Positions 7,195 to 41,153 of a stretch of DNA of 64,000 nucleotides are shown piece by piece. The stretch covers positions 1,359,501 through 1,423,500 of the forward strand of contig NC_135555.1 in the NCBI RefSeq assembly GCF_964340395.1, read 5' to 3'. The notes beneath the pieces were generated by a model that was given only the letters and a program-made list of their open reading frames with translations, searched no databases and was not told the DNA's origin. Each line of letters starts with the position of its first letter. Positions within the stretch are counted from its first letter, which is position 1. The position numbers and the translations under genes were made by a program. The DNA is from Glandiceps talaboti. Its lineage: Eukaryota > Hemichordata > Enteropneusta > Spengelidae.

Positions 7195-10100
7195 TTAAAA
7201 ATCCAGTTTTCTGACAGCTTGTACTTCTTCCATGTTCCTAGCCCTTGGTCTTTTAGCTTTGGTGTGTTCTAGCTGTATTTTTTTGAAATGATCCAGTAAT
7301 TCTTCAAAATTGATAGTTTTCAGATGTGGTCTATCTTCAGGAGAGCTTGTGGGTCTGCAATGAATGCAATTATTATGATGGCATGATTTGTATTTCTTAT
7401 TTTACGACGACGTTTCATAATTTATCCTAAGAGTATTAGTCTTACAATATCATACAAGATACAGATGGTGTGTCTATCATGAATCTTATATAAGCCTTTG
7501 GGGAAAAACATCAGACATGGTAAGTACTTGTACGATAATGTCTAGACAACATGAATACAGAGAGTTAAATTTTAATCACCTAGTACTATGATCAGAACAT
7601 GCGACACTAATGAAAATTTCAGTTTGAGTTTTTATGACAAACAAATCTACTAAAATATTCAATATGATGAATTTAAACATAGCAGGTTGAATGATATGCT
7701 ACATGTATTAATATATACAACAGTAATGTGTATGGACAGACAAGGTGTTTGTAAAACCCATACCGGTAGATACTAGAGGAAAACCGGCAAACTGATAATA
7801 GTATGGCATATTGTACCCAAGACAAGTTGATAGCATGCAAACAAAAAATATGGAATTTAAACCATGATCTTTCTACATCATGGCAATGCTTATATAAATC
7901 ATTAGTTCAGCAGTCTCAAAACAGGAGTCAAAATGTCAAAAATCACCATTATCTGTCCATTTTTTTCATAAATTATACTTGGAAGGTATAAGGATATTAT
8001 TCCCTAATATTTTTCCTCAGTTAGTTGGAAAATAATAGTGACATAAGGGTTTGTCACTATTTGTCTTTTACCTTGTAGTAACAACACCCCTTAGATTACT
8101 CATATTTGTTTTTTGGATGAATAAAAGAAAATGGGAATAAGGCCTAAAAAAACATTGTTTTGTTCCGTTACCTGACCCCACCTAGCTTTTCACTGCCGAC
8201 CCTTAACTTTTTAAAAAGTATTCTGGAAAAAATTAATAAAATTGCCAAAATTGTGAAGTCTCACGGGAAATAGTGGATGCGGACAATATAAAACTGTTCT
8301 TCCAATCTGTAATGGCTGTACAACTGATAGGACAAAATAAACAACACAGAGACCATTTGGAAAACAATGGAAAACCTGAACTAGACTAGACACTCACACA
8401 GAAAAAAAATACAATAAAATAAAATAAAAAATCTACCTACCCCACCTATTCTAAAATTGAGCGTAATTGGAACCACACAATTTTTTTTTATTAGACCTAA
8501 TATCTAATTATTTACCAGGTTCACAATATTCAAATACAGAAAGAACATATCATTCAACACATAATACCACACACACACACACACACACACACCACTTCTT
8601 CTAGCTATGTCAATAGTAATTATAACAATTTCCTTTTCACCTTGTATTTCTAATCAAAATCAGCAATGTAATTACAATATCCAATCTACATGTAATAAAC
8701 CAGCAATTGTACTAAACAGCAATCAACACTTTATTACACAGATATAATATTTCAAAAATATTTGTCTAATTATAAACCATCAGGTGATTAACATCATACA
8801 TTAACTTGATTATAATATGCTATGAAATTCTAATATTTCTCAATACCACATACAGATATAGTCTTTCACTGGACCAACCTAATGAATAATAATGTGGCAT
8901 ACCATTTCTATGTTGACTATCTGTATTTATCATGCAATATTTCAGTTCTATTTCTGTAAACCACCTGGATATAAAATATGTATCTATTGCATGTACTTGA
9001 CCTGATGTTGACCTGTTGTTATATCATATGATATCATAAATTTGTCTATTTCCCTTATACTAGACTATGGTATTTCTTTCCTTTTTACTGACCCAATATT
9101 GAAGTAACATACTACACATTTGTCTATTTAGTTTATACTATAAGCCCTTTCCTTGCTACCCCAAAATTGATTTATAACAGAAATTTGTTTATTTCATTTG
9201 AATTACCTGCTGGTAGACTAATTATGCCAGTGCCCTGTTACCCCAAACATTATGCAAATACAAACTTGTTTCTTTCATTTATACTGAACTATAGTATGTC
9301 TTTCCCTTACTGTATATTTTTCATGTGTATTTGACTTCAGCATACTCTTCCCTTGCTACCCTAAAATTGATGTAACACACACATTTCTCTATTTCATTTG
9401 TTATTAATGTGTCCTTCCCTTGCTACCCCAAAATTGATGTAACATAAAAATTTCTCTATTTCATGTTTTTATTAATATGCCCTTCCCTTGCTACCCCAAA
9501 CTGATGTAACACACAAATTCATCTATTTCCTTTATACTGGACTACAGTATGCCTTTCCTTTACTTTCACAAAATTAATGTAAAATACAAATTTTGTTTCT
9601 CTTCCATAAATTAGTCAGTATATTTATGTTATTTTCTGATTTTTACAAAAGATCAGTTGCAAATCAAGATGACTTTTTGATAATCCTGTCAGCTTAATAA
9701 ACAATACACACATCTAGCCCTCACCTATTTATGAGTAACCTTTTGGTTATATAATAAAAAAACATATTTTTTTCCATACAATTAGTCATTATATTCATAT
9801 TAATGGCCTGACCTTGCCGTGTGGTGTTGTCGTCTTTATATCTGCATTCATTATCATATTTCACAACTAGAGATTAAGTTTGTTATTAAAAATCTAAATT
9901 GAAATTCATGATTGATTGATTGATTGACAGCTAAAGGGGTTATACACTATACTACTGTAGTGTGTATTGCTGGATAAAGTTCCAGAAGTAGATGAAGTAT
10001 AAACAAGGCAGTGAACAGAGATATCAACATACTTAATACATAGGGAGCTTCTTCCATCAGTTTTAAACCTGCAAAGCTCAGACTAAATACAGCATGATTC

Positions 10101-10624
10101 ATTTATTATTCATATTATTATATTTTATTCTATATTTCATATCATTCATATTATTATTGCTGCTAGCTACACCACTCAATGCATAGAAGACAAGCTCTCA
10201 AAATGTGAAATTTCCATATATAAAAACAAGATGTATCGTTATCTTTGTAATAACGCCAATAAAAATGTGATTAAATACAAAAAAACAACAGCATGTGTTT
10301 TGGTTTGATGATAAATCACACTGTACATGATCCACATTTAGCTAAGCTTAGTAAAATCAACCCCCACTGAATGGAGTTAGGTAATAAACAACTATGTGTT
10401 ATACACCATTAACAAGATATGAAACTAAAACAAACCATTGTACAGTATATCAGGTATTGATTACCTTGTAACCATCTATCACAGTTTATCATTATATCAT
10501 ACTTGAATTGTGGTCATTTTATCACATTTTTTGTTTATTTTACTCAGTTGAATATAGTCCATGTATAGATATCAAACAATAACACATAAATTGCACAAAC
10601 TATATATACATACATTACATTACA

Positions 10625-10655
<31 letters not shown>

Positions 10656-10841
10656 CATACATACATACATACATACATACATACATACATACATACATAC
10701 ATACATACATACAGACATACATACATACATACATACATACATACATACATACATACATACATACATACATACATACATACAGACATACATACACACAGAC
10801 AGACATAAATACATACATACATACATACATACATACATACA

Positions 10842-10880
<39 letters not shown>

Positions 10881-13800
10881 CCATCCATCCATCTATCCAT
10901 ACATAGTCACACTAAGAAACCTTAGAAAATAGATGAAAGTTTTCCACACTAATCATGGCATGTAAACCACATGATGGATCAGTTGACCTCACTACAAAGC
11001 AATACTAAGGTTTTCAACTTACAATCAAACCAACCAGATGATCTCATTCACACATTTCCTATGATATATCTATCAGTGAATACAAATGCACACCTGTACT
11101 CTTTTTATCCTTAGTCTGTAAATGACTGGAACAATCTCACAAAGAATGTTGACTTTTTTGAATATTCAATGTAGAAATGTTGGCAAAAATGAAGTCTTTA
11201 CCCCTTTGTCTTACTAGTACTGTCCACACATGTACGTACACATGATACTTATTAGTGTTAGAGTCAGAAGAAAGAGACAGACACCATTTAAATGAGTACC
11301 ATATCTTACCTGTCATCTTTAGGCAGTAGTTGATAATTAGGAACACAGTCTAGTCTATGACGTAGTGTACTAAAAGATGAACTCTGAGGAAGCAACATCA
11401 ACAATCCATATAGACTCTTCACTAGGTACTGATTATGATCTAAATCTAACAGCTGTAGTCGAAGGTCTAAGTTTGAAGATAGAAAATTGAATTATTAATA
11501 CTAGTATTATATCATATCTTTGCTTAGACAACAATTATGAGGTATAAAACAGGTTAGATATGCAAGTGTATTATTAGTAGTCTTTTATTCAAATTTGAGA
11601 CTCTTCAGCCATATTTTCTGACAGGTGTTGTACGTTTCATATTTTTCATCCATCTTTTAAAAATTCTCACTTTTGTTTGAAGTTTGTGCATATTACTTAA
11701 CTGTGATGAACAAACACAATATCCTTCCTCATCCTTCCCAAAAAGTGCACTCATGATGGTTAGTACCAATCTGATGTGGTGAATACAGTTTGATTTATTT
11801 ATTTACCTCTATTTCCTTAGTTTTTATTGTTGTCAATTTTGGTGTTCAGAAAGGTGTTCGCTCCCAGAACAACAAATTGAAAATGCACTCACCACAACAG
11901 TGAAGGCTGCCCTCAGTGTTCATAAGTGGTAGAGGTATACCAAATGAATAGATTTATTTCAAAATAGTGTGTCATACTTACAGGTAAATATTGGTGACTC
12001 TATCAGTTGTACCAGTTTATCAATCTCTGTCAAGAAATCTACCGTCACTTCAAGATCACCACTGATATTCAATGTCAAGGAATATATATCACCAAAACGT
12101 TGAAATGTGAACTCAAATATAATGACGGAGCCTTCCCAATGTATTGTACAGCTCATAAGCATGAAATATATAGAGATGAACTTTTGTGGCTTGCTAATTT
12201 CCCCTTCAGTGACAAACTAGACTAGTTCAGATCAAACTATTTCTGTTGCCCTATGTTCCCTACTATAATTTTTATCTTTGATGATACAGGGTTGTAGTTG
12301 TCATTTTATATCGACAAAATAAACAAACTTCAATGCAATAGATTGAAGTGAGCCAGCAATGTTTGTTTTCAGTGTGTGACTTTAGTAGTGTATTGCCATG
12401 GTGATGAACTATATGCAATACTATAGAATCTCTTATCATATTATTGTGTTGAATGATATATTCCCATCAAGATATAACAGACTATAAAAATATGAAAACC
12501 AGATCAGATTACACTTTATAAAAATAAAGATACCATTATAGTTTATTTGGATAGAGTAGATGGAGATATAAAATGAGATCATTGACATTTATTTTAGTAT
12601 TATTTCCTAAGGATACAACAGATGGAGTAAATCACAGGCATGTTTGTAGTTTTGGGTCAGAAAGCATAACGATACCGTGGCAACTGGGTTGTGACACCAC
12701 GACTTGTATAAACAACTGAATAACGCACAGCTGTCCTGTAACAAACAAACAAACAAACAAACGAACATGATGGCCAGTACTGACATTGAATGTTCAAGGA
12801 CTCTGAGTTCATAAGGACAGTGATAGATTCTTACTTCCTGTCAAAAATTTGAAGAATCAAAAATCTAAATTTTGCTAACATCTCTTCAGACAAATAAAGG
12901 ATGTGTTGACAGCTGATGTTACCTCAATAAAGATGGCGGCAATATGATCTCAGCAGTGACTCTCAAGTGTCTGGTCATATGACATGTGACATCAACATTT
13001 TAAAATATTCCCTAAGCATGCATATCAGGTGTCAATGAAAATCTAGGATTTTATCTCTTCAGACATTTAACTCCGGTGATATTACCTTCATTAGTCATGA
13101 TGGTTATAGTTTAGATTGTAACTAAGTGATTGTTAGTAGATGTTATTACATAGCACTATTTGTACTCTAGTCACTGGCAGTGTTTTAATCTAAGGTTTAG
13201 TAGGACTTGTAACTGAAGGATAGCTTCAGGACTTACATATACAAACACACTTTAGAACTAATTCACAGTGACACAGACAGACACAGGTTTTAAAATAGAA
13301 GCAAATTGGTGAAATATATATTTGGCTACACGAAGGTAGTTCATCACAATACATGTCATATTAGTATTACAACATTAGATATTCATTCCCTTACATAACG
13401 ACAGACGCTTCCCTCTGGACGTCGTTACAGGGTTCCATTTGCAAAAAAGAACTTGTTTAAAAAATCATTCTTACCATCAGCAGTGGCCATTTTGAACACA
13501 ATGTGACAGCCTCAAGTGAACGTTTATTTCATTATGTAAATATACTATTTCTGTTTTCATTGCTGTGAATTATGTGTATTTTTGTAACATTTGCTGATGA
13601 GTCTGAAGACAATTTTCTGTGTTTTTATATGCACACAATAAAGTTTTGAATTGAATTGAATGTCACTAACACCGAGTATATTGATATTAGTCCTTTCAAA
13701 ATACTTGATTCATTCTTATTCACTACAATGAAATTACAATCTCTCTTTATCACAACCATACATGTAGAGTCAGAGGATAGAGATACGACTGAAATGATCA

Positions 13801-15621
13801 GTGCAGTGAGGTAAAGTGTGCATAAAATGTTACCTTTGTTTTTAGGTCTTTGAGCTGATTTCTGAATTCAAATAATTCAGTTGATGTTATTAAGATACTA
13901 TTCAATGTTTGTACCATACTGGAAGCAAACTTCAATTCTTCTTCATGGATAAGAATTTCTGATAATGCTCTGTAAATGTCTTCAGAGTTCAGGAGTAAGC
14001 ATAACTGCCTGTTATAAGGAAAACAAAAGACAAAGATGTTACAACTATAGAGGGCAGTCATTAACTAGAACAAGTAACTACTGTTCTTGCTCATAAACTG
14101 TTGTTTCTATACACTCAACTACATTTTTTTTCATCATTTTCCTGATAGTCCCTCCTTAAAAAATATGTTTCATGTACATACATCATTGCAACTGAGTCTT
14201 AAATGTTCATATAAAAAATGTAGCATAAAAATAGTGCCAGTAGTTACTGCATCAGTGTTTTATTTACTTGTAACTTACATGACTTCTGATACACATTGCA
14301 TTCATTCATTCATTCACTCATAAACATACTCGTCAAAAAAATGATGAACACACACATGCATACGTATGTACATACATACATACATATACACATACATACA
14401 TACATACTTGTACTCCGGGTGGGCGTTAAATTTCGACTGACAGTTACAAATGAGGGCTATTGACCAATCAGGGAAAAGCGTGAAGACAGGTGTATGAGCA
14501 GAGTAGCAAATTTATCAAATGTTAGTGGCGGGAGTGTATTTTCTATGTATGAGATCCAATTAATGGCATCCAGGGAAGAGTGATTAGACGCAGACAATCA
14601 TAACAAAAACATGACCCCAGACTGTGACTGAACAGATAAGACTTCCGTTCACACGTTGAACACTATTTTTGTAATAATAAACATTACCTCAGAGTGTATT
14701 TAGAAGGTGAATAAAATACACATACAACAAGGTAGACGGTATAATGGCAGGGGGAAAGCGACGGTTTGCTGTTATGACAGCTGAGGACATAGATCAGAAA
14801 CTGAAGGCAAGTGTACTGAAAAACACACAGAAATACACTGAAAAAAATACTAGCTCATCATGCAAGTTTGGAATAGTTGGGCCGAAGATAGGGATGAAGA
14901 CGGAATGGACAAAAAGTCACAATAATTGTGGACGGTATTGCATTGTAGTAGTTTGAATGGTGTATTTTACTACAACTTGCGAGAGGTAGACGGTACTACT
15001 ATTGCTTCGTAATACACGACATTTCAAAAGTTTGAATGATGTATTTCATTTGCATGTAATTAATATGCTGTTTCTTTACACTAGACACATATAAACAATT
15101 TCGCTGAAAGTTGTATTTTTGATGTCAGTAGCCAGGTTTACGTTTTATCAGTGGCGATTAAATTTCATATCACTAGTTGCATACACATGATGGATGTGAT
15201 TGTATTGAGTAGTTTGTAGTATGAATGTCCTGCATAATAATATCAAGCAAATACATAGTGGTATGAAATACACTGTACATTGGGATGTAAATTGCTATTT
15301 TCGTCGTGCAACATAGCGATATACGTGTGTGACATTGAATGTTGACACAGGCGTGTATCCAGTTTGTTGACACGTGTCAGCTTCGATTGGAAGTCACGTT
15401 GGCGTCAGGGTGTCTTGTCGAAAATCAAAACATAAACAATGGGTGTATGAACTTTTTCCTGGTAAGAATATGACACCATCGAATTATTAGCCGGGGTACA
15501 AGATAAATGCCATCCTGGCAATACACGCCTCCTACGTCGGCGTGTATTTACCCGGACGGCATTTATTACATACATACATATACACATACATACATACATA
15601 CATACATACATACATACACAT

Positions 15622-15652
<31 letters not shown>

Positions 15653-18600
15653 TACATACATACATACATACATACATACATACATACATACATACATACA
15701 TACACACATACATACATACATACATACATACATACACACACACATACACATACACATACATACATACATACATACATACATACATACACACATACACAGA
15801 GAGACATCCCATTTGTGTTGCTTTGACTTACCTAATAATAAATGAACCTCTGTCTTCAAGTAAATGTTTATCTGTACTAAATAATTTCATCAAGTTAACC
15901 ATAAACTTGATAAAATAAAGATTCATGCCTGGTACTGGTGTTGCAGACTGCATTGCAATGTCTGTCATTTCATTACTGATTTTACCCTGACCTGCTGGAG
16001 ATGATGCAATCTCAGCTAACACTTCTAAATCTAATAGAACTACCTGAAAAGTTACAAACAGAACATGTTTAGGTTCTCATGCAGGTCTCTGAAATTTGAC
16101 TTTTTTTAAAAGGGAGGGCGCTATTCACATTGCTTATCCTGATTGGCTATCCAATATGCAAAACGTAATACCTGATGATTTTTTTGTTATAAGCCTTTTT
16201 TTTGGTAATCTATTCAAAATAACACATAGCTAGTATAAAAGTTAATTGAGTCTTTTCTGATGCTTTGTGCACAAGAAAATTTCTATGGTTTTTGTATTTC
16301 CCTGTGTTTGTGAATTCAGCAATAGTGTCCACTTTATATATTGCAACTTGTAAATTTCCTAGTCATGTATTTCTTGAATGGTGTTTCTTCTTTACTTGTG
16401 TATATTTTCCCATTTAGTTATTCATTATTTATCTTGAAATGAAATTAGTCAAGTGTAAATAGTCCCTTACCACTATAGTATTTGATACTTCTACTTCTAC
16501 ACTGTGTAAACATCCAAACAGGATTATCAACACACAGGTGTAACGCTGGCGGCGTCCTATAGATTTCACCCGTGTTCAGGTGTGCACGATTTATGAGATC
16601 GGTCATATCAATGCTGGAGAGGGCAGACTTGAAACTGTTTATTGACTTTGATTATTGAATGGATAGTGGTAAGAGATTTAATTCTGGAATTGTCCAAGGA
16701 ATCAGTGAATATACATCAGAATATATACGATATAGACTTACTTCATCTGAAGGATCTGATAATGTCTTCAACAAAACAGGAAATAACTCTTCTACATGGT
16801 GAAATATCTATAGAAATAATGGAAATACATTTATGTCAATGGTATATGAATGTAGAGATGTAGTTGTTAGTCATTCATATCTGGGGGTACAAATGTGAAG
16901 TTACTTGGAACATTTACCAAATGTGGTATAGAATCATCAATTTGTAATTCTACCGTTTACAAATTAAATAGATAGATATAGCTATATCATATATCAAATT
17001 TAGTGTTGAAATGTAGATACAAATAATTACTACTGGTAGGTATATTATTTACTATACTTTGGCTTGAATTTATAGACTTACTGATGATTTCATCTATGCT
17101 GTGTTTTGATATATTTAAGGTTAATTTGATAACTTCATTTTACCTTACTTGGTATTTTAATATGTAAATGATAGATCCATTTCAAGACAGACATCCTGGT
17201 CTGCATAGAGTTGTGTAATAAATGCCTTGATTACCTTATGTAAATGATAGATCCATTTCAAGACAGACATCCTGGTCTGCATAGAGTTGTGTAATAAATG
17301 CCTTGATTACCTTATTTGGTATTTTAATATGTAAATGATAGATCCATTTCAAGACAGACATCCTGGTCTGCATAGAGTTGTGTAATAAATGTCTCGATTA
17401 CCTTATTTGGTATTTTAATAATGTAAATGATAGATCCATTTCAAGACAGACATCCTGGTCTGCATAGAGTTGTGTAATAAATGTCTCGATTACCTTACTT
17501 GGTATTTTAATATGTAAATGATAGATCCATTTCAAGACAGACATCCTGGTCTGCATAGAGTTGTGTAATAAATGCCTTGATTACCTTATTTGGTATTTTA
17601 ATATGTAAATGATAGATCCATTTCAAGACAGACATCCTGGTCTGCATAGAGTTGTGTAATAAATGCCTTGATTACCTTATTTGGTATTTTAATATGTAAA
17701 TGATAGATCCATTTCAAGACAGACATCCTGGTCTGCATAGAGTTGTGTAATAAATGTCTCGATTACCTTATTTGGTATTTTAATATGTAAATGATAGATC
17801 CATTTCAAGACAGACATCCTGGTCTGCATAGAGTTGTGTAATAAATGTCTTGTTAGGACATCTACCATCGGTGCTAGTTGTAACTTCACATGTTGATGCT
17901 GGTGCCTGCGAAAAAAAAGAGGGAATACCATGAGTTCACTATTGATAATTATGTATTTCATCATAAGCCTAGAGTTGTGTGCCTGTGTATGGAAAACCAC
18001 ACAAGTCATATAGCCATAATTGTGGTACAGCGAAAACGTTCATGAGTATGTTTATCACATGGCAGATTGTGTCTGATCTCAAATACCTTCAAATCAAACC
18101 AAAGTTCTTGTAAAATCATATACAGATGATACAAATGGATATAAAATAAGAATTATATTATATCATGCTACTATGCGCCATTCTGATTGGATAATAACTG
18201 TGGTAAAATCCCATTTTACCACGGCTGGCAGTGGTAAAATGGGCCCCTAAACTAGCATATGAATAGTACTCACAAAAATGAAGCTAGTGTTCGTTCTTAT
18301 ACCAATAAGTTAACACTTCTTCAGAGTAAAGGTATGTCAGGTATCCTGTCCAATAGTTTGGGTTACAGTAGTCCAAATAATTCCACTGATGACCTTGCGA
18401 TCGAAAGCAACGATCGATCAGTGGCTTCAACACCACTGGCCATGGCTGATAAGGTACAAGTTCTCCCATGCAACGAGCCGTCAGCGTCCTGCTCTCGTTG
18501 AATCAAGCAACACCAATTTAACTTTTAACCATCAGTCAAGTGCGTCAGGATTATTTCAAAACTGTACAGTTTCAGGTTCGGTCAATGTTCAATTTGTTAA

Positions 18601-21600
18601 CCATTAAATTAAAGTAGACTGTGTAACGTCGCGTCTCTGATTTACTGTCTCGCGCTTTCTCCGATTCAACTGGTTCAACGCCGCGGGCCGAGACATCTAT
18701 TTTTAGCAGTGTACAAGATTGTATTGTTCTTATGTAAATATCCAAACAAAATTGTTACTTTCTTTGACCTCTTTCCCCGTTTTCTTTGTTGCTAGTTTTC
18801 AACGCGTTTTCGTTATGCATTATATGATGTAAATAAAGTAATTTGTCAATACATTGCAATGCAGTGTATGGTTTGTGTTCATGCAGTGTGTGTGGGGGAC
18901 GACATGAACGTATCCACTCATCAAAATATGCTCGTTCACGACGATCTATTACAGACGATCTTTCTCTGTACGTGCGAATTCGCCTTTTCAGGCATATAAA
19001 TAACCACAGAATCACATTTAGAAGAAATAGACACATATTTTGATATAATATAATAACAATAACCTCCGCCGAAGGCGGGTATACACTCGAATTTGGTACA
19101 ATTCGCTCCATATAGCACTCGCCATTCGGCTCGTGCTATATGTCGCGAATTGTACCAAAATCTCGTGTATACCCGCCTTCGGCGGGGGTTATTGCTTAAA
19201 TCTTTTACAACACTAATTATTCAAATCTCTGACTTACTGTGTCTCTGGTTTATCTGTTTGCTGGGTGACACTTTCCTCATCATCTTTATCATCTTCTAGT
19301 GTTATTAGCCTTTTCAAATGTTGGTTGACACTATTTGCAACCTCTCTGATATCTGATGAAAAGTTAAGGTCTTATCTCACAAAAGCTAGATTAACATCAT
19401 TGATATGGTTCTCCTATATTCCTAGTCACACAGTCACATTATCAAGTACACGTACAGTCTTTGGTATACAGTTACTACACAAAGACTTTTTTTTGACACA
19501 AATTCACACTTGTGGAAATAACAGCTGAATGATTCTAAATTACTTGTTAAGTGTGTGTGTTTTCATATATCAAATACAGTGTTTATCATGTGTTTATTAT
19601 TGACTCAAACCCATCCCCTCCCATTACAGGTGATGTTCTCCCCTTAACAAGGTGACAGGGCACAGAGTTTGAACTACAGTAATTCATCAGTGCCCTGCTT
19701 AATCACAATTTTCATACATCATCGTCATCATCTTAATATTCAATAATGAATCATGCTTGAAGGAACCAGAGAAGTGGTCACCACTACCCAAGTCTTGTTC
19801 AATTCTGTTTCAAGTGTTCATCCATTTTAAAAATGAATGACAGTTCATAATTCCATAAACAAACATGTCACTGCCTCTGGTATAAAGAAAACAACTTGAA
19901 GCATAACATTACTCTTATTTTCCCCACCTCCTTCATACAGATGGTTTACAAAAACATTTTGTAAAATAAGAATTACCACTATTATCGAAGCTGAAAGGAT
20001 ACTTTTCTTGTTATCTTCATAAGCAACACAGGGTAATATTGCAGTTAATAACCCTGAGGCAAAGGGTAGCATAGTCCTTCCAGCAATGGTTAGGAACTCT
20101 TTTAGCCAGGTTATAGCCGTAAATTGTATTAACTCATCTATGAAAAGTAGAATATAGGAAGATTCAAGTTCAAGTTTCAACTCTGGTTTGTCGGACGGAC
20201 GGAGGGAGGGACGTACGTACGTACATACGTATATATGTATTCTTGACAGCATCTTCCCATAAACCAAATTTCATCCCTCACCATTTTGAAACAAAGTATA
20301 TTTCCTGTCCTCCATGGTCATATCAATGCAATGTAATAACATTTCATTACCTTGTGACTGGCAATGTGTCATTATTACCCTGAGACTGGCAATGTGTCAT
20401 TATTACCTTGTGACTGGCAATGTGTCATTATTACCTTGTGACTGGCAATGTGTCATTATTACCTTGTGACTGGCAATGTGTCATTATTACCTTGTGACTG
20501 GCAATGTATCATTATTACCTTGTGACTGGCAATGTATCATTATTACCTTGTGACTGGCAATGTGTCATTATTACCTTGTGACTGGCAATGTGTCATTATT
20601 ACCTTGTGACTGGCAATGTGTCATTATTACATTGTGACTGGCAATGTATCATTATTACCTTGTGACTGGCAATGTGTCATTATTACCTTGTGACTGGCAA
20701 TGTGTCATTATTACCTTGTGACTGGCAATGTGTCATTATTACCTTGTGACTGGCAATGTATCATTATTACCTTGTGACTGCCAATGTATCATTATTACCT
20801 TGTGACTGGCAATGTATCATTATTACCTTGTGACTGGCAATGTATCATTATTACCTTGTGACTGGCAATGTGTCATTATTACCTTGTGACTGGCAATGTA
20901 TCATTATTACCGTGTGACTGGCAATGTGTCATTTATTACCTTGTGACTGGCAATGTATCATTATTACCTTGTGACTGGCAATGTATCATTATTACCTTGT
21001 GACTGCCAATGTATCATTATTACCTTGTGACTGGCAATGTATCATTATTACCTTGTGACTGGCAATGTACCATTATTACCTTGTGACTGGCAATGTGTCA
21101 TTATTACCTTGTGACTGGCAATGTGTCATTATTACCTTGTGACTGGCAATGTATCATTATTACCTTGTGACTGGCACTGTATCATTATTACCTTGTGACT
21201 GGCAATGTGTCATTATTACCTTGTGACTGGCAATGTACCATTATTACCTTGTGACTGGCAATGTGTCATTATTACCTTGTGACTGGCAATGTATCATTAT
21301 TACCTTGTGACTGGCAATGTGTCATTATTACCTTGTGACTGGCAATGTATCATTATTACCTTGTGACTGGCACTGTATCATTATTACCTTGTGACTGGCA
21401 ATGTGTCATTATTACCTTGTGACTGGCAATGTGCCATTATTACCTTGTGACTGGCAATGTGTCATTATTACCTTGTGACTGGCAATGTGTCATTATTACC
21501 TTGTGACTGGCAATGTGTCATTATTACCTTGTGACTGGCAATGTGTCATTATTACCTTGTGACTGGCAATGTATCATTATTACCTTGTGACTGGCACTGT

Positions 21601-24600
21601 ATCATTATTACCTTGTGACTGGCAATGTATCATTATTACCTTGTGACTGGCACTGTATCATTATTACCTTGTGACTGGCAATGTGTCATTATTACCTTGT
21701 GACTGGCAATGTGTCATTATTACCTTGTGACTGGCAATGTGTCATTATTACCTTGTGACTGGCAATGTATCATTATTACCTTGTGACTGGCAATGTACCA
21801 TTATTACCTTGTGACTGGCAATGTGTCATTATTACCTTGTGACTGGCACTGTATCATTATTACCTTGTGACTGGCAATGTACCATTATTACCTTGTGACT
21901 GGCAATGTGTCATTATTATCTTGTGACTGGCAATGTATCATTATTACCTTGTGACTGGCAATGTGTCATTATTACCTTGTGACTGGCAATGTGTCATTAT
22001 TATCTTGTGACTGGCACTGTATCATTATTACCTTGTGACTGGCAATGTGTCATTATTACCTTGTGACTGGCAATGTGTCATTATTACCTTGTGACTGGCA
22101 ATGTGTCATTATTACCTTGTGACTGGCAATGTATCATTATTATCTTGTGACTGGCAATGTGTCATTATTACCTTGTGACTGGCAATGTGTCATTATTACC
22201 TTGTGACTGGCAATGTGTCATTATTACCTTGTGACTGGCAATGTGTCATTATTACCTTGTGACTGGCAATGTATCATTATTATCTTGTGACTGGCACTGT
22301 GTCATTATTACCTTGTGACTGGCAATGTGTCATTATTACCTTGTGACTGGCAATGTGTCATTATTACCTTGTGACTGGCAATGTGTGAATTATTACCTTG
22401 TGACTGTCATTATTACTTTGTGACTGGCAATGTATCATTATTACTTTGTGACTGGCAATGTGTCATTATTACTTTGTGACTGGCAATGTATCATTATTAC
22501 CTTGTGACTGGCAATGTGTCATTATTACCTTGTGACTGGCAATGTGTATTCAAAATATTCACCATTTCTTCAAATTTCACGTTGTGGGGATATTTTTTAA
22601 TCTCTCGTAAGAATTCTTCAAGTGCCGTCTCACACCTGTTACAAAAACATTAACATGTAAAAATCAAATATCACATGAAATAGAATGAATGAATGTATTA
22701 AAGAACAAATGAATGGAATAGGATGTATGAATGGATAAATACACAAGACTTCTATATGCCTGTACATGTAATTGTGTCGATAGGGGTTTTTCATTGGTCA
22801 ACTACAAAGTTAAATGAATAATTTGCATAATCTGACCTGGTGGTCATGTAAATGTCCTTCCATATTTGATACAAAGGGTTGTCAGACAGTACACCGAGTT
22901 ACATGTAAGTATATTGCAGAATCTGAGTCAAGGTAAGACCATCCAGTAAAGAGTTTAACCTGAAAATCTCACCACTTACATTTTCCTTATCTCTTTACTT
23001 TGATCTCCCAAGATATAAAGCATACCATCTAATATTTCTGGTAAGAATATTAACATATCAATGTGTGGCACAGAATCCAATACAATCACCTGTAAAATAA
23101 TACAATTAGATAGTATTGCCCAATTCTGTTCTTCATTCAGCCATGGAAAATATGAGTGACCTAAGGGTCCCTTATCACTACAAGTTGCTAGACAAGTATT
23201 GACAACCGTTAGGTCACGAGTATTTTCTGGCTGACTGAAGAAAAATATTAGTATAATTATACCATTGCCAATAATATAAAATAAAAATCAAGGGAAAGCA
23301 ATCACAATTTTGAGCGTTTTGACTCATATTTCGAACACAGCAGAACCAATGACGTAGACACATATTGTCATGACAGATGCATGTTGCCGTGACGTAGAAC
23401 GAGTACAGATTCCATATTTTTTTGTTGAACCTGGCTCGTGCATGGTATAATAAATGATACAGGCATACATAAAATGAAATATTTTGTGTTATATTTTCCT
23501 ACACATTACTGACAGGGAGGTTATAGGCTAAACTTTGCCTTGCAGTTATATATGTTCTGATTTCCATCATGTCTTTTCTATGCAAATATTCATGTCAAAG
23601 TTTTCTATCTTGGTGGGTTATATTTACAATAGATGTTGTGGGAAGTACAATGATTTACAACAACTGAATAGATTTCAGCTGTTCATTGTCTTCTATGACA
23701 GGACCATTTCATTATATTTTGTTGAAGTCAATCTTATCTTTCTGCTAGTAAGATGGAAGTAGAAATTACACTATACAAGCAATTTCTCATATCTATACAA
23801 TTGGTTACTTTTGATCTTCCTTGGTGAAGGATTTCTCTGATGTGTATTAGATCACTCAAGACATTATGAACTAATGATGGAATCTGTCTAGATATCGTCG
23901 TGTCAGTGCAGTAAGGTCATATCTGCCTATACAACTGCATAGTAGATACAACCTTTCGGCACAGACACAATGATACACTGATATACTTACCCAAGACACT
24001 ATAAACTGCCTAGCAAATGAATGTGTTGTATAAATTCTCTCTCTGACAAGTGGCATAAATGATACAAGATCAAATGACTGTGATTCTGTCACAATGTCCT
24101 GTAAGAATAATCAACATATACAATTTACTACATTGTATTCAAAGTCATTGCACAGTTTATTTACTTCATCCGTTTTACATGGTATGATATAACTACTTGC
24201 AATATGGTAATAACTTGTATCCTAACACAGAGTACTATTTTCAAACAGCGTGTCTGTCCCCAGCAGCAGTTCTGGGTTGACCTTTGACCCTGTGTTTCTA
24301 CAGACATTGATATGACACTAAACTTACCTTCATAAGTCTGTCTAGTAGTTCTGACCCATTCTTGACATTAACATCAGGATCAGCAGCAAGCTGAAAACAA
24401 AAATGGAATCACTTTAGAGCACTCAGATGTTTCAAGAATATACGATCCATCATTTTCAAACTTTACTACAATCTTCTGACCTTCTAGTTCTAAAATATTA
24501 TGTGACTGATTACTTCTACTATAAATGAAATCAAAGAGAGGAAATAACTAGTACACATAAGGACCAATAACAAGTTTACAATGTCTGTATTTCTTGAATC

Positions 24601-27600
24601 CCAAATGCCTTTGATGTAAAATTTGATTAAAAATGTATAACTATGTATTTTATTCTCAGTACAATTGAATAGCAAAACCATTAATTATTATCTTTACCGT
24701 TTTCATAAAATTCTTTCATTTTCATGTTGAAAATAACTTTTTTTAAATGTACATCTCATTCCCTTCATATTCATGTAAAGTTTGGGAAAACTTTGCAGAC
24801 ACTGTACATTTATCACATTCAAACACTACTGTGTGTACATATAGTAAATACTGGTAACTGTACTTTGCATATTATATATCAATTTTTGCTAAAATATTAA
24901 TGTTTTGTTCCTGATTATAGTTCAAATATAATTGTGCTTTGTATGTGTTAATGTTGATGTTTTGCTCAAAACAATACAGCAAGAATAACCACAAAGTATA
25001 CTGTATGATACATTTGACACATTTTATAAATTTTATACAAAACTGCCATGGAGAACTTTCATACAAAGTGTAACAGTAGCAGACTGATGTCAAATGAATG
25101 AATGTAAGTTAGATAAATACTGCCCTCTAGTGACAAGTGCTACAATGAATGTCCACAAGTGCGATTTTGACATGTTTATATATGATGTAAAAACCAAGGT
25201 AACATTGAAGTGGTTGCCACTGCGATGATCAATACAATGTAAAAACCAAGGTAACATTGAAGCGGTTGCCACTGCTATGATCAATACAATGTAAAAACAT
25301 GGTAAACACATTAAAATACTAACTGGAAACCCAGCACTGTACATCACATTACATTTTAATCAACTAATCCACATCTCAGTAGTACATACAAAACTGTTAT
25401 CATTGAAGGTTGTCAAGTTTTGGAATTTTGGTTTACTTTAATAGAAGTGTGAAAATGAAGTTCAGCAATTGCATTGACACTAGACCCCTTTTCCCATAAA
25501 TGAATGTTGTTCATTTATTGGGCTTATATGAAATCATGTGATCATCACTAAGCAAGCAATGGAAAGGAATAGATAATACTGTCTTACCTTACTTAGTCCA
25601 TCAAATACTTCATTAAAGAATGCAAGTACAGACCCCCTAGCTACCTTGACAATATTATACAGTGCTTCACAGGCATAGTATCTGACACGACTGTCTGGGT
25701 CAGAGAAACATGCCAATACAGGACGTATCATCTCAGCTAAATAGTTGCCAGATTCCTGTTTAACAATACAAAATACATGTAGACTACAATTATTTTGTAA
25801 AACATGAATTTTATTTTATATTGACTCGATAGTGTAAACAATTTGTGAACACTCTACATTGCATATGAACAAAACAGTTTTCAAGATTTGAGACAAAATA
25901 TGTGAAGTGCAAGCGTAGTATGAACATTGTACCCAATTTAACTACATGGTAGATTTTGGAACAATTACAACATCTGTGGTTCAGACATTCTAGTTCATGG
26001 TATGATGTATATCCCACAATTCTGTCTGATTAGAGATTAGTATCCACTACTGTACCTTGGACTATATTGCTAATTTCACTTTTCATCACTAATATACTTT
26101 TATCTTGCCAAAAATAGACTGATTGGATGAGTCGTAAAAATGTAATATTGGAATCACCAATACTGTTTGTCTTCTTTGTACACTATATTGAAAGTAAGGT
26201 ACAAATTTTACTGGAGGTGTTGAGTTAACTGGAGGTGTGAAAAGGTTTGCTTTGATATATGTAAATTCAGGTGTGAAAGTACTTGTCAGTTATATGCATC
26301 TAACTGTCCACCTTTTGTGATAATGAACATACACAGTGACTGTGTTATAAGATAGACCCTCCACAAAGTGGTGGAGGGTCTATGGTTATAAGACATATCA
26401 CATGCTAGTATTCAATTATTTGTTATGGACTAACATTTGATACTAACCTTTCCTAGAGCTATGGCAGTAGCTGCTAGTCCTATTAGTCCACCCTTACGAC
26501 TGTTAGGATTATGTGACATTACAAACTCATTGGTTAATACATTGACCAATCGTTTGATCTGTTCTGTGTTATTGGAAGCTACAAACTCTTTTCCCATCCT
26601 GGTCAGAGAAAAAAAAATCAGAAAAAGACAGAACAAAAGATGAAAATGAGAAGGCAAACATCAATTATGTTTACTTTATTATGATTCCAAAAAAACAACC
26701 CTAATATACAGCAAAGTTTATATATAACAAATACACATTTGGTGGACTACTTTGGGAATGAAATGACAGATATTATTATAGATAGTGTGGTCGATTCAAG
26801 GTCTGTTCTAGAATACTGAATTTTCTACCAGCAGAGAAAGTAAGCTGTGCAGGAACAAAAATCAGAACAGATACAATTGTTGTTTGTGTCTGTCTCTTGT
26901 AGTGGGTGATTCATATACATTGTAATACAATTGTTGCATGTTTCATTTATTTATTTCGTGTTTAATTCAGGCCCATATAAAAGGGGGAAAATATAGATAA
27001 AGAATACAGAAAGCTAAATACTGACAAGTGTCTATCTTTTAATGCAGATAGTGATTTACTAAATAAGGACTAAATGGAAGACAGTGCACAGCCCTGTCAT
27101 AATTTGAGACAAAACAAAAATAAGCCTCATATCATGACAGCACCCTACATGTGGACCATACCTTGCAGACCTATGCACAAATGTATATATATCAACCTGC
27201 AAGGAAGTCACATGTAAGTATTACAATGTATATAAATCACTGTCTGCAAGAGACAGAGATAAGCAACAAATGTAGTATCCGTTCTGACTTTTGGTCCTGC
27301 AAAGTTTACTATAGTACTTTCTTCTGCTGTATCAAGGTGTAGTTCATCAAACTTTTCTTTTCTAAATTTGACTTAACACTAATAGTACATCCATTGTCAA
27401 CTGTGTGAACAATGGTACACACCGTACATATCCTTAAATGACCCCAACTCCCAACCTGAGGACCAGAATTTGAAACTTAGTTGTTAACTTGTGTGTCAGC
27501 CAGAAACATAAACTCCACGTGTATCTATTAACCACAATTTGGGGGTTCAGCTCATTCTCTGTGAGACATTAACATTACAACTTAAATACTGAAGGGTGGA

Positions 27601-27743
27601 CAAGAGTATAAATATTCCTAAAAATTAAGTTTGAGTACACACCTTTCAATTTCCAACGCCGCAACTTTTCGTTTGTCATACAATTTGTCGTTCAAAGCCC
27701 TCACACAGGCTGCATTCAGCGGTGCAAAATCTCTCTCTGTCAT
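7195..27743 (-). CDS. VAC14: VAC14, scaffold of the PIKfyve-FIG4 phosphoinositide complex (17 exons)
   Basis: VAC14 is a HEAT-repeat scaffold that holds the lipid kinase PIKfyve and phosphatase FIG4 together on endolysosomal membranes to control PI(3,5)P2. Exons in transcript order: 27643-27743, 26448-26598, 25588-25755, 24328-24390, 23991-24098, 22980-23089, 22529-22635, 20003-20137, 19238-19352, 17767-17905, 16742-16807, 15832-16043, 13834-14008, 12617-12735, 11982-12061, 11310-11466, 7195-7354. All junctions are GT-AG and in phase, giving 721 codons plus stop (human about 780). Landmarks shared with human VAC14: [20 protein letters not shown] at the start, [10 protein letters not shown] (exon 2), [17 protein letters not shown] (3), [11 protein letters not shown]-like (4), [11 protein letters not shown] (10), [14 protein letters not shown] (12), [15 protein letters not shown] (13), [19 protein letters not shown] (14, FIG4-binding region), [19 protein letters not shown] (15). 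The linker after exon 9 is shorter than in human. Exons 7 and 10 carry tandemly repeated 3' edges. Confidence 0.96.
8141..8497. mobile_element. Tourist-like MITE (PIF/Harbinger type), copy 1
   Basis: About 357 bp with terminal inverted repeats starting GGCCTAA (right end reads TTAGACC, one change). It is flanked on both sides by TAA, the 3-bp TWA target duplication typical of PIF/Harbinger elements. Inner TIR sequence extends through a TGTTTTGTTCCGTTAC-like block. A second copy lies at 60016-60345; the two share long stretches such as AATTGTGAAGTCTCACG and ACCATTTGGAAAACAATGG. It sits in the last VAC14 intron and has no coding capacity. Confidence 0.8.
8568..8592. repeat. (AC)n microsatellite
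   Basis: Short AC dinucleotide run next to the MITE copy, inside the last VAC14 intron. Confidence 0.9.
8990..9600. repeat. Diverged tandem repeat in last VAC14 intron
   Basis: About seven imperfect copies of a 60-100 bp module: a CTTCCCTTGCTACCCCAAAA-type block, then TTGATGTAACA, then ACAAATTTGTCTATTTC. The copies from 9340 to 9520 are the most alike. No coding content. Confidence 0.65.
10607..10880. repeat. (CATA)n array ending in (CA)n
   Basis: About 235 bp of CATA tetranucleotide with occasional CAGA interruptions, followed by about 38 bp of CA dinucleotide and a CATC tail. It lies in the last VAC14 intron. The Tyr-Ile-His-Thr and Met-Tyr-Val-Cys open frames over it are repeat artefacts. 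Confidence 0.95.
13395..13660 (+). mobile_element. Possible retroelement 3' tail with (TTGAA)n end
   Basis: The segment ends in ACACAATAAAGTTTTGAATTGAATTGAATG: an AATAAA followed by short TTGAA-type repeats. That is the form of 3' ends of CR1/L2-like LINEs or SINEs mobilised by them. No coding remnant is visible, so the class is inference. It lies in the intron between VAC14 exons 13 and 14. Confidence 0.35.
14366..14410. repeat. Short (CATA)n run
   Basis: Imperfect CATACATA repeat in the intron between VAC14 exons 12 and 13, just left of the Crypton-like remnant. Confidence 0.8.
14744..14956 (+). mobile_element. Crypton-type recombinase N-terminal remnant
   Basis: A 70-codon plus-strand frame starts [20 protein letters not shown] and continues to [10 protein letters not shown]. 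The layout (basic start, R-F, a D/E-D helix, then N-T-x-K/Y-x-T) resembles the N terminus of Crypton/DUF3504 tyrosine-recombinase proteins common in invertebrate genomes. The similarity fades after about residue 45. It lies antisense in the VAC14 intron between exons 12 and 13. The family call rests on remembered pattern only. Confidence 0.45.
15502..15566. repeat. 65-bp hairpin with about 27-bp arms
   Basis: Arms ATAAATGCCATCCTGGCAAT... and its partner ending ...CCCGGACGGCATTTAT pair over about 27 bases with a few mismatches. They flank a short CTCCTACGTC loop. It directly abuts the (CATA)n array at 15566. It could be a foldback-element end or a remnant of the terminal structure of the nearby Crypton-like sequence. 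Confidence 0.75.
15567..15800. repeat. (CATA)n/(CA)n array
   Basis: About 235 bp of CATA repeats broken by ACACAC stretches. It ends only about 30 bp from the 3' edge of VAC14 exon 12, so the exon's donor at 15830-15831 sits next to a long simple repeat. Confidence 0.95.
17141..17766 (-). repeat. Tandem array of VAC14 exon 10 3' edge plus splice donor, about 91-bp unit
   Basis: Eight copies, counting the real exon end, of a unit whose minus strand reads GAGACATTTATTACACAACT ... CCAAATAAG followed by GTAATC or GTAAGG. Each unit repeats about the last 80 bases of exon 10 with its 5' splice site. One unit (near 17232-17260) has lost the TATTAAAATACCAAATA part. Unit length is about 91 bp, so retention of one unit shifts frame and soon reaches a TAA. 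Copies are nearly identical, which points to recent spread or homogenisation. Confidence 0.92.
17767..17905 (-). CDS. VAC14: VAC14 exon 10, source of the 91-bp array
   Basis: This exon encodes the [17 protein letters not shown] segment and the conserved [11 protein letters not shown] motif, ending at residue 399 in phase 0. Only the donor at 17765-17766 gives the human-like continuation into exon 11 ([18 protein letters not shown]). Use of the next donor would add about 30 codons ending at an in-frame TAA. The exon joins directly to exon 9 (codon CA|G), skipping a Ser/Pro-rich linker that is longer in human. Confidence 0.93.
18165..18245. repeat. Inverted 'GGTAAAATgGG / CCCATTTTACC' repeats
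   Basis: Three blocks GTGGTAAAATCCC, ATTTTACCACGG and GTGGTAAAATGGG form an alternating hairpin. It lies immediately left of the Crypton-like C-terminal remnant and may belong to it. Confidence 0.6.
18246..18606 (+). mobile_element. Crypton-type tyrosine recombinase C-terminal remnant
   Basis: One frame reads [16 protein letters not shown] followed by [10 protein letters not shown]. This fits the H-K-x-E-x-S-x-R-S-Y box that carries the catalytic tyrosine at the end of Crypton/DUF3504 recombinases. A second frame further on ends [16 protein letters not shown], which fits the usual G-x-F-x-x-C-T-x-x-G C terminus of the same proteins. The two parts lie in different frames, so the copy is degraded. 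It sits antisense in the intron between VAC14 exons 9 and 10. The fragment at 14744 could be from the same family but is separated from this one by three VAC14 exons. Confidence 0.55.
19055..19197. repeat. About 140-bp near-perfect palindrome
   Basis: Left arm AACCTCCGCCGAAGGCGGGT ... GGTACAATTCG ... ATATAGCAC mirrors right arm GTGCTATAT ... CGAATTGTACC ... ACCCGCCTTCGGCGGGGGTT, with a short centre near 19122-19130. The arms contain smaller palindromes (CGCCGAAGGCG; TATATAGCAC/GTGCTATATG). It has the form of a foldback MITE. It ends about 40 bp from the donor of VAC14 exon 9. Confidence 0.85.
20345..22528 (-). repeat. 28-bp minisatellite carrying the VAC14 exon 7 splice donor, about 78 copies
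   Basis: On the minus strand the unit is ACACATTGCCAGTCACAAG (the last 19 bases of exon 7) followed by GTAATAATG (first 9 intron bases). It starts at the real exon edge and runs about 2.2 kb into the intron with few variants (GTGTC/GTATC/GTACC, CAATG/CACTG on the plus strand). Nearly every unit keeps AAG|GTAATA, a usable-looking 5' splice site. The array ends about 200 bp from the acceptor of exon 8. Confidence 0.97.
22529..22635 (-). CDS. VAC14: VAC14 exon 7, source of the 28-bp array
   Basis: It encodes [20 protein letters not shown] and the end [10 protein letters not shown], joining to exon 8 [15 protein letters not shown] as in human (HCQTTDDLIQLTA). Only the first donor (22527-22528) restores codon G|AT. 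With the second donor the junction reads AG|A TGA, an immediate stop. With later donors the frame meets TAA inside the second GTAATAATG. Distal donor use should therefore give truncated, decay-prone transcripts. Confidence 0.94.
23131..23400 (+). repeat. Dispersed repeat family, copy 1
   Basis: About 250 bp that aligns, with divergence, to the reverse complement of 43430-43680. Shared blocks include GTTTTGACTCATATTTCGA, ATGTAGACAC-like, GACCTAAGGG-like and GAGTATTTTC. Internal inverted motifs (TGAGTGACCTAAGGG against CCGTTAGGTCAC) suggest a non-autonomous DNA element. It lies in the intron between VAC14 exons 5 and 6. Confidence 0.6.
25180..25300. repeat. Two-and-a-half copies of a 52-bp tandem repeat
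   Basis: The block AACCAAGGTAACATTGAAG ... GTTGCCACTG ... GATCAATACAATGT repeats with one or two changes inside the intron between VAC14 exons 3 and 4. No exon edge is involved here. Confidence 0.8.
26353..26382. repeat. Perfect 12-bp-arm hairpin, also present at 58428
   Basis: TAGACCCTCCAC and GTGGAGGGTCTA flank a 6-base loop. The right arm and what follows (GGGTCTATGGTTATAAG) recur at 58441-58457 with one change. It may be a short dispersed foldback repeat. Confidence 0.7.
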
Positions 27744-28532
27744 CGTGAATGATGTTGGTCGATCCCCGATCACTGATTTCTAAAAAATCTGTTTATACAC
27801 AGGCAGGTGAGCACATTTTAACGACAATAATAATATGTTCACCTCTTGGTTTCTGTCTGCTTATCAAGACGACATCAGACCTTCACCCGCTGAAGCAGCT
27901 ACACCATGTAATTATAACCCTGCCATAATCCTTAAACGTAACTCAAACTATCTCAATTTAAATACTCTCAAAGATTTTTCTGCGCTAGGAATCAGAGAAA
28001 TATAATACAAATATTTTGCCGTATTTTTTGTACGTTTGTGGAAGCTCTGTCATCGAATTTAGACTGTTTTTTTTCGACACGAGTGTCGTGTATCTAAAGG
28101 GGGTGATGGCTATACTTCAGACAGCCACCAACTTAATCTTTATGAAACAAATGCGTGGATTCGTCTGTAGATCAGACCCTGTCTTTCCTAGTCCAATCGA
28201 GGGCGCGCTTAGAAAAATAAGAACCCGGAAGTACATGACAAAGTGAACTGATCGCTGCTAGCTGACGATTTTCTCATTTATTATTCATTATTTATACGAT
28301 CGAATACCGTGTTTTACGGTGACCGACACAATGAAAGAAAAATACATCTACTTCTATGACATGGATCTTCTAGAGTCGTAAAATACATTTATAGAAGAAT
28401 GAACAAATCATCGATTCAGGAAATTAAATAGCGTTCATGCGTCGTTTCATCTTCATCACATGATCAGCTTCTTCTCTTCATCATCTCAAGTGTCTGCTTC
28501 ATATTTCGTATCACCATCCATCGTAATATTGT
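27744..28532. promoter_or_regulatory. Divergent promoter region between VAC14 and the MARVEL gene
   Basis: The two start codons are 789 bp apart and point away from each other. The region contains a consensus-like ETS site ACCCGGAAGT at 28223-28232 next to a GGGCGCGC stretch. Such sites are common at TATA-less bidirectional housekeeping promoters. No TATA box in a convincing position was seen. Shared control is inference from layout. Confidence 0.5.
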
Positions 28533-31500
28533 ATGATGGCTGAAGATATTCATAACGTTGATATCGAATCGTTACCAAGTCCAGATACTCAAAGAGAAAT
28601 AACAACTGCAGTTCCTCCGATTACCACTCAGAATGTGAGAGTTCGAGTCGATTACAGTTATCTACGAACAGCACCTGGTGCGTTGAAACTGTTACAGATA
28701 GTAAGTATTGCATTCGTAATATTATGTTTTTCAGTCACATTTTGACGTATTACGTTTGAAATGGAATGGAATGCCGAAGAGAAGGAAAAGTCATTATTTT
28801 GACACATCATGACAACAAAATACTCAGTTCATTTATTGTGGAATTTCAAAAAATTGTCTCCTTATTAAACAAAGAATGTGATATGTTAATAATATTACCG
28901 AGTGTGAAGTACATGTTTGGTCGATTCAAAGCATTGATGTAAATGGATATTTTCAAGTTACTACTTTGAATATTTTATTATAGTTTTATATTTTAACTTT
29001 AAAATACAGAAATAATAGGCATTTTTTTTTAAATTTCGAGTTTGCATATATTTCAGGCTCCAAAAACAATGGTGCTTCAATTCTTCAGTCAATAAAATAT
29101 ATATAATTGTCAATAAAATAGGTTTTGGAAAACTATTGATGACATGTACTGGACAACAATTTTTTGGGCAAGTATTGTTATCAACAGAAATAGGTTGATT
29201 TATCAAGTACATGTAATGAATGCAAATGAAGACGTTCAACAGAACAGCACAATCAATAAATTAAAAAACCCAAAGATTTATGTAACAATAAAGGACACAG
29301 TTATTATCTTAAAATCTGAAAATCTAAATATATAGTAGAATGGAAAGTTATATTAACCATTAATCATTCAAATTACACAACATTGAAGAGCAAAGATCAG
29401 GTCATGTGACCTGAATTAATTAATCAAATTGTTTGCACTGTATGTGTTAGGAAAATCACATATCTTATTTCCAAATATAATTTGAATATTCTTTGAATTT
29501 TAAAATTATAGTTGTTTAATGAATGAAAATGATAAATATGCACATACTGGTTAGATCTGTTTGTGGATATAGAAAGTTTTGAAAGATAATGCTAGAGATG
29601 TAATATTGATAATTCTGAAAGGAGAATATTATGAAACTGAAAGAAACAGACAATGGATAAAGACTGAATAGAATCATTGTGAGGTCCTGTTCATGTAACC
29701 ATGGGATGATCTAGCAATGACGTTCATTATTTGAAGAGATGTGTGCATTCCCAAAACACATATTTGTGTGTACTTTTCACTAATGTGAGTAAAGATACAT
29801 AGATACACTCAGTATACAGTCAGTTCATTTGCTTAGTTAGAGGATAAAGAATGGATCACTAAAATATTCATGAATATATAATAGGGCATGACTTGTAATC
29901 TTAGCATGATATCTACATATTGGAAAACCTGAACAACATTTTTTTGGGCAAGTATTTTTATCAACAGAAATAGGTTGATTTATCAAGCACATCTTGGTAA
30001 TTGGCTAGACCGATTGTACTGAGTGATATGGTACTGGTAATTGGCTAGACCGATTGTATATACATGTATGAATAAAATATATGAAATATATATTTAAAGA
30101 GAGAGGAAAGATGAAAACAGTTGTTAGTAAACTGACTAATTGCAAATTGTAAATTGACAAAAAGGCACAGTTACGATGTGAATGTTTTCTGAGTTGTTTT
30201 TGTTTCATATCATTATGAATGATAACGTCTACTTTCAGGTAAATATTGTCAATGTTTGTAAATGTATGTGTTATGACAGCTATGCAACTGTGATATCAAA
30301 GACAAATTTTGAGTGCATCTAAACATTCGGTTTTGTTGATAGTTTGCCGAGATCTATAACGTTATGTTTAAAGTGAAATATAACAGATTTCCAGCCCAGT
30401 TACTATAGTGATGATTTAACATGGTTCAATATAAAACAGATTATAAAATTTTTGAAATTATGAAGTGCTTAATATTCCAGCCCTCCAAGAAATTTTGATT
30501 GTCAGTATTAAATGTTGTGTTTCATTATTACATACACATCAATGATTACATACATTAGTATGTGTACATATACTATTGTGTTTACACTGCAGTGCAATAT
30601 CAATAACATTATCATGGATGTAGAAAAGGGGCAGTAGCTGACAAAAGCTACTTAGTGCTACTCTGCAATATTTTACCTTTTACTTTGTCAGGAATCTGTT
30701 TAAAAATTCTTTGTGTCAACCATTACATTTCCATCGATGGTTGACTGAGATTCATATGTGTCTCATGTACATTACCATCTATTTTTTACATTTGACTTAA
30801 AAAAGCTCAGATAATGGCAAATTGTATGCAAATTTGTATAGATGCAATACCATGTACACAAAATCACATGACTACATCTGTTGTATTTCTGTTTTTTGGA
30901 TAAACACAATGTACTGTAATAACAAAACCCCATCATGCATTGGTGCCAGTATGGATACTAGGATTCACTCACTTTGCTTGTAGAACTATGATGTAGAGAA
31001 TACGTACACCACACTGGCACTCTTACAAATACCCCAAGTACACCACACTGGCACTCTTACAAATACCCAGAGTACACCACACTGGCACTCTTACAAATAC
31101 CCCAAGTACACCACACTGGCACTCTTACAAATACCCAGAGTACACCACACTGGCACTCTTACAAATACCCCAAGTACACCACACTGGCACTCTTACAAAT
31201 ACCCAGAGTACACCACACTGGCACTCTTACAAATACCCAGAGTACACCACACTGGCACTCTTACAAATACCCAGAGTACACCACACTGGCACTCTTACAA
31301 ATACCCAGAGTACACCACACTGGCACTCTTACAAATACCCAGAGTACACCACACTGGCACTCTTACAAATACTCCAAGTACACCACACTGGCACTCTTAC
31401 AAATACCCAGAGTATGCCACACTGGCACTCTTGCAAATACTCTGAGTACACCACACTGGCACTGAGATCTTACAAATACCCAGAGTACACCACACTGGCA

Positions 31501-40500: not shown

Positions 40501-41153
40501 ATTCATACATTCAAATATAATGATTCACCACTCACGTGTACGTATAATCCTCCCGATTGTTACACGGTTTCCCAACGAGCTTCAGTTGTACCTATACGAT
40601 AAACAGTACTTTTTTAGCTGCCCAGAAAATGTTGTCAAGAAAATTCTGTCTTCTGCCTGTACTTTCAATGTCACAGCCATTGGATATTTCGATGTAATGA
40701 CAATGTATGCTTCTGATATCCTCGTTTCTAATGAATGGGATCTTCATTTTCCAAGGACAGAATTATTACCATTGGCCGAAAATTTTCTCAGTTTGTACAA
40801 TTTTTATGCTCATCACTGCAACAACTGACGTTACACCATGCTTTATTACTAATATTAGAAGTAAAGCCCATGAATAGAACACTCAAACCGGAATGGACGA
40901 TGATAGAAAAGTCCATTGATGATCAGTTTCTTCCTTGTCTGTCTGGGGTTAGATATGGAAGTACGTGGGTGGTACCTTTGTATTCAAACCTCTTGCGACT
41001 CGCAATCTGAATATGGACTATACATATGGACTATACATCACTGGTGAAAATATCGTTTGGTACCACTTTTTGGTACCAATCACCCTATCTGGCTCATGGA
41101 CTAATTTCTATATAAATGTAGAATATGGTTAAATATAATGTACTGAGGTAGAT

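Follow-up and report, generated by a model that had tools for sequence, protein, structure and literature searches.

Two minisatellites that multiply 5' splice sites at exon edges of VAC14 in the hemichordate Glandiceps talaboti

The minisatellite of human IFI6 (also called 6-16 or G1P3), whose repeat unit is 12 bp long and in frame, is an older example of splice donors supplied by a repeat, and it was reportedly described by Turri in 1995. Two downstream repeat units of this gene act as donors and give rise to three mRNAs for different isoforms (PMC4526556, in part). Another array is the VNTR in intron 18 of human ABCA7, which has a 25-bp unit in about 12 to 427 copies and opens with the GT of the exon 18 donor (De Roeck 2018, PMC5954066; statements here on ABCA7 draw on part of that paper). 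Retention of a single unit is out of frame and produces a premature stop, and this minor isoform is raised by cycloheximide. In the parts of the paper drawn on, retention is reported for a single unit only, with no ladder, and neither unit retention nor NMD depends on VNTR length. Length goes with increased skipping of exon 19 (4.1-fold for one expanded allele), which removes 44 amino acids, and with decreased expression. The frameshift isoforms come from a cryptic acceptor in exon 18 and from one-unit retention; they amount to 14% and 2%, the former figure presumably belonging to the cryptic acceptor. Alternative isoforms, mainly exon 19 skipping, jointly exceed the canonical isoform in 90% of BA10 brain samples, and the VNTR is associated with the risk of Alzheimer's disease (PMC5954066). 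Tandem duplication is also described as a route to intron gain, for example in the model of Rogers and in potato RdRp (PMC4974935, in part), and 24-nt repeats flank two gained introns in fission yeast (PMC3629103, in part).

The VAC14 gene of Glandiceps talaboti has two donor arrays, one at exon 7 and one at exon 10. Both lie in a stretch of 64,000 nucleotides that we call the window. At both sites, an array with a minisatellite period overlaps or abuts the 3' edge of a coding exon, and its units carry usable-looking 5' splice sites identical or close to the native donor. The likeness to ABCA7 lies in the similar unit size of the exon 7 array, the scale of its copy number and a first copy that is the real exon donor; furthermore, the unit is no multiple of three, and hence retention of one unit leads to a premature stop. 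However, the ABCA7 VNTR starts at the GT, whereas the VAC14 units also hold 19 or 82 exon bases, so that the entire exon-intron junction is multiplied. A further difference is that a single gene, VAC14, holds two arrays, which are known here from the sequence of one assembly. IFI6 is similar in that a minisatellite at an exon edge provides multiple donors, but there the donors encode isoforms, whereas units of 28 and 91 bp, as in VAC14, disrupt the reading frame. Intron gain likewise involves a tandem duplication that carries a splice site, with copies concealed in an intron. In that case a new intron arises, whereas VAC14 shows multiplication of a donor, with an acceptor that has no relation to the array. 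A sequence-only reading of this DNA, made earlier by a model, had not known exon-edge donor minisatellites on this scale to be described. That they are undescribed is contradicted by ABCA7, which in the parts of PMC5954066 drawn on closely matches VAC14 in architecture and in scale, and by the older case of IFI6. The kind of donor minisatellite to which the VAC14 arrays belong has been described before, although it is little known, and the unusual point is the presence of two such arrays within one gene.

VAC14 lies on the minus strand at 7195..27743 and has 17 coding exons, which were located by tblastn and then joined. The start ATG is at 27743, the stop codon ends at 7195, and the joined frame encodes 721 amino acids with a single, terminal stop. 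Homology is collinear over the full length. Among the best 120 of 3644 relatives, the closest is VAC14 of Saccoglossus kowalevskii (84% identity over 100% of the query length; 86% in a 9-sequence alignment), and proteins of a brittle star, an amphioxus and a nemertean are 64-68% identical to the query. In the alignment with Saccoglossus VAC14, the join of exons 7 and 8 and that of the array-bearing exon 10 are both free of gaps. Introns 8 (19353-20002) and 14 (12062-12616) have the donors GTATCCTTT and GTATCCTTA and, near their acceptors, CCTTAAC and TCCTTGAC; they resemble U12-type introns. Intron 9 contains a near-palindrome (19050-19200) and open frames (18240-19135), both seen by eye, which are possibly a transposable element.

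Exon 7 (22529..22635, minus strand) is 107 nt long and ends in phase 1 with CAAG/GTAATA, where the slash marks the exon-intron junction. The array begins within this exon, as had been noticed before, and occupies 20346..22547 on the minus strand; the interval given earlier, which ran to 22635, included the rest of exon 7. TRF reports a period of 28 bp, 78.9 copies and 95% matches, and a unit parse yields 79 units, one without 8 bases and the last partial. The 28-bp unit, ACACATTGCCAGTCACAAG/GTAATAATG, takes 19 bases from the end of exon 7 and bases +1 to +9 from intron 7, just as the sequence-only reading had it. That reading had also counted about 78 consecutive AAG/GTAATA donors and treated them as equals. 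The number of units was nearly right, but only 75 of the 79 keep the GT, and the exact motif AAGGTAATA (AAG/GTAATA) is present in 68. Nor are the donors equal: units 3-5 carry AAA/GT, in which the -1 base is weakened, and the GT is gone from units 10, 15, 20 and 23, where +1 has changed from G to A.

The array contains 16 distinct unit types, plus units that bear indels. Unit types recur weakly at a lag of five (at least this strongly in 23 of 2000 shuffles, with 15 lags tested), as blockwise duplication would give. Assemblies often get the precise length of a tandem array wrong, and mis-assembly could in principle have produced this array or its length. Against such an artefact stand the variety of unit types, the indel-bearing units, the lag-5 pattern and the occurrence in the same gene of a second array with unrelated sequence, and we regard it as extremely unlikely. 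Counted by eye, five substitution types fall in the nine donor sites (-3 to +6) and six in the other 19 sites. The donor bases are no better conserved than the remainder of the unit. Seven of the eight changes at -1 or +1 are found in units 3-23. We considered whether decoy donors close to the exon are selected against; these changes resemble about two events copied in blocks, and we make no claim of such selection. An origin of the unit from a transposon or an RNA gene was set aside: the unit is exon 7 sequence, the window had no match in Rfam at gathering thresholds and no tRNA, and a PDB search with a 72-amino-acid piece from exons 6-7 gave no hit at E 0.001.

The acceptor of intron 7 (ttctacttttcatag/) is ordinary and lies outside the array, about 200 bases past it. 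Its position bears on the idea that the array made intron 7 itself, by tandem duplication of AGGT. Each intact unit does contain AG/GT, as this model requires, and the 24-nt repeats around two gained introns in fission yeast offer a parallel (PMC3629103, in part). However, the acceptor is not part of the array, the duplicated units do not bound intron 7 or intron 10 on both sides, and a short extra peptide at the exon 7/8 join in zebrafish and Tubulanus hints at an older junction, although it is no proof of one. We find it hardly credible that the intron arose in this way. Recursive splicing at the exon 7 array is possible, each intact unit being AG/GT; by eye, there is no clear pyrimidine tract ahead of the AAG in the unit.

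Exon 8 (20003..20137, minus strand, 135 nt) has its acceptor beyond the 28-bp array and starts at 20137, where it continues the codon CAA G/AT GAG. When the 75 GT donors of exon 7 were joined to it in silico, only the first (donor 1 at 22529; junction 22528..22529, minus strand) gave the full product of 721 amino acids. With each of the other 74, translation would end at residue 279, in 73 cases within the retained array and for donor 2 just past the join. These stops would lie at least 1197 nt upstream of the last exon junction, and all 74 alternative donors yield predicted NMD targets. In these respects the sequence-only reading was borne out in silico: it had held that the first donor alone keeps the frame, that donor 2 meets a stop directly after the join and that use of later donors, with stops inside the array, would create targets for decay. 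It had also placed the end of exon 7 at 22529, a position supported by the gap-free 7/8 join against Saccoglossus and by the acceptor phase at 20137. Homology and frame together point to the use of donor 1 at exon 7.

The array at exon 10 had not been mentioned in that reading. Exon 10 (17767..17905, minus strand, 139 nt) ends in phase 0 with TAAG/GTAATC, and the array, of eight units, occupies 17144..17848 on the minus strand, as defined from TRF rows, a unit parse and splice consequences. The TRF rows behind it are 17161-17315 (76 bp) and 17237-17850 (91 bp). The 91-bp unit takes 82 bases from the end of exon 10 and nine from the intron (the TRF edges would give 84 exon bases per unit). Units are spaced by 91 bp, once by 92 and once by 76, and the exon-like part of the eighth unit ends at 17144. 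The sequence is unrelated to that of the exon 7 array in the same gene; in each array about nine intron bases have been captured, which is sufficient for a donor. All eight units have the donor AAG/GTAA. The acceptor of exon 11 (16742..16807, minus strand, 66 nt) is again outside the array, about 340 bases past it. Only donor 1 (17767) would be productive. All seven others would lead to premature stops 825-1357 nt ahead of the last junction and are predicted NMD targets.

Within the exon 10 unit, a GCAG also precedes a run of 57 in-frame bases that leads up to the donor (GCAG/ACC...AAG/GT). Candidate pseudo-exons of this form lie within 17144-17732 and measure 57 nt in five of the seven later copies, 58 nt in one and 42 nt in another. 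Including one, two or three of the 57-nt pseudo-exons would keep the reading frame intact as far as the native stop. The upstream pyrimidine count is 10, at the low end of the 9-16 found at native acceptors. One could imagine that exon-edge donors are amplified recurrently in this lineage and that the paired arrays work jointly on VAC14, with a copy-number-dependent dial on productive splicing at exon 7 and a bank of in-frame 57-nt mini-exons at exon 10; we think this combination very unlikely. If it were true, the mini-exons (19 residues, or ending ...PSK) could contribute further helix-repeat peptide.

We think it probable that the arrays at exons 7 and 10 are donor minisatellites shielded by splicing, that is, exon-edge duplications that were tolerated through use of the first donor and then amplified. 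They would have begun as two separate short tandem duplications across the 3' edges of VAC14 exons, one of 19 exon plus 9 intron bases and the other of 82 plus 9. The spliceosome could stay on the exon-proximal donor, and the extra copies would leave with the intron and the protein would be unchanged. Because the copies fall within the intron when the upstream donor is used, such an array would be shielded from selection and free to grow, and slippage or unequal exchange may have brought the two arrays to 79 and 8 units. Donor 1 would be the main donor used, probably by exon definition of these short exons, and VAC14 should remain functional as long as splicing relies on the first copy. Shielding is favored by the prediction that donor 1 alone keeps the frame, as one of 75 donors at exon 7 and one of eight at exon 10, and by the second array of the same design within the same gene. 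The lack of extra conservation at the donor bases is also consistent with it. Counting against it, duplicated identical donors can favor the intron-proximal copy at high U1 occupancy. The ABCA7 array, which alters isoforms and expression, argues by analogy against shielding being harmless.

By analogy with ABCA7, donor 1 should dominate over the later donors of VAC14, and a minor share of transcripts, perhaps a few percent, would keep one 28-nt unit and be degraded. Long arrays may also favor skipping of exon 8 or reduce output. Such skipping would keep the frame and remove 45 amino acids, which parallels the length-dependent skipping of ABCA7 exon 19, with its 44 amino acids (PMC5954066, in part). 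This parallel raises the question of a dosage dial, in which array length would govern what fraction of transcripts is unproductive or skips exon 8, and would thereby tune VAC14 output between individuals or tissues. In its favor, every alternative GT donor is predicted to give an NMD target, both at exon 7 (74 of 74) and at exon 10 (7 of 7). On the other hand, the donor bases are without extra conservation, and unit retention and NMD in ABCA7 are independent of length in the parts of PMC5954066 drawn on. We consider a dial of this kind doubtful.

Neither array donor (GTAATA and GTAATC) has a G at +5, a condition shared by just 3 of the 14 U2-type donors of VAC14 (P 0.033 for both array donors, post hoc). 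Going by these sequences, the missing +5 G could have been a tolerance filter for arrays. The U1 pairing energy of the array donors is -6.6 kcal/mol, rank 9-10 of the 14, and four of the 12 other U2-type donors pair more weakly (-6.5 to -5.6 kcal/mol). Weak donors as the reason for tolerance thus hold at +5 only, and we do not maintain that explanation. The same figures bear on whether the surplus donors are a platform for U1, acting as an intronic enhancer for exons whose donors lack the +5 G. A 5' splice site downstream of a 3' splice site boosts recruitment of U2AF and U2 to roughly the extent that a strong enhancer in four copies does (PMC8724738, in part), and the +5 G is missing in both array donors. 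However, the exon 13 donor GTAACA also lacks it and has no array, nor have the four donors that pair worse with U1. Moreover, every added copy would be a competing, frame-breaking site, and donor conservation is no higher than in the rest of the unit. A U1 platform therefore appears to us quite unlikely. We also dropped a reading in which RNA structure masks the donors, since some shuffled sequences fold equally well. In the consensus 28-bp unit, ATTGCC pairs with GGTAAT over the donor (-5.1 kcal/mol; 13 of 200 shuffles as good), and in the context of exon 7 the fold has a z of -0.44 (65 of 200 shuffles). Within the folded stretch, donor 1 has an accessibility of 0.35 and the nine later donors have 0.34-0.93, so that donor 1 is not the more accessible.

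Of four minisatellites in the VAC14 gene, two span a donor, more than under a model of random tolerated placement (P 0.011 for donors only, 0.030 for donors plus acceptors; both post hoc, for four minisatellites and with the 17-bp row at 8691 left out). This excess may reflect a bias or a function beyond neutrality and is only a hint. The window as a whole is rich in minisatellites: 12 loci in 64 kb were kept from 40 TRF rows after overlapping rows were merged and microsatellites and short or low-scoring rows (e.g., 8691, 47352 and 57043) were dropped. Two of the 12 overlap an exon, in a comparison with VAC14 exons only. No such overlap was found for the further TRF loci at 31004-31536 (period 34), 34728-34979 (62), 44006-45015 (50), 47509-47648 (43) and 56183-56399 (30). 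Elsewhere, a frame of 440 amino acids at 61917-63236 on the plus strand matches the FAM217 family (E 3.6e-11). Exon-like frames at 28527-42907, also on the plus strand and divergent from VAC14, have by eye the look of a small membrane protein, and three pieces of them had no Pfam match.

With VAC14, an invertebrate gene with two arrays joins ABCA7 and IFI6, the cases of donor-multiplying minisatellites that this analysis found in print. The arrays constitute a natural test of how the spliceosome chooses among dozens of near-identical donors. They also suggest that duplications of exon ends survive because splicing hides them. Since such duplications would be concealed in this way, we expect that more will be found when long-read genomes are scanned for arrays at exon edges.
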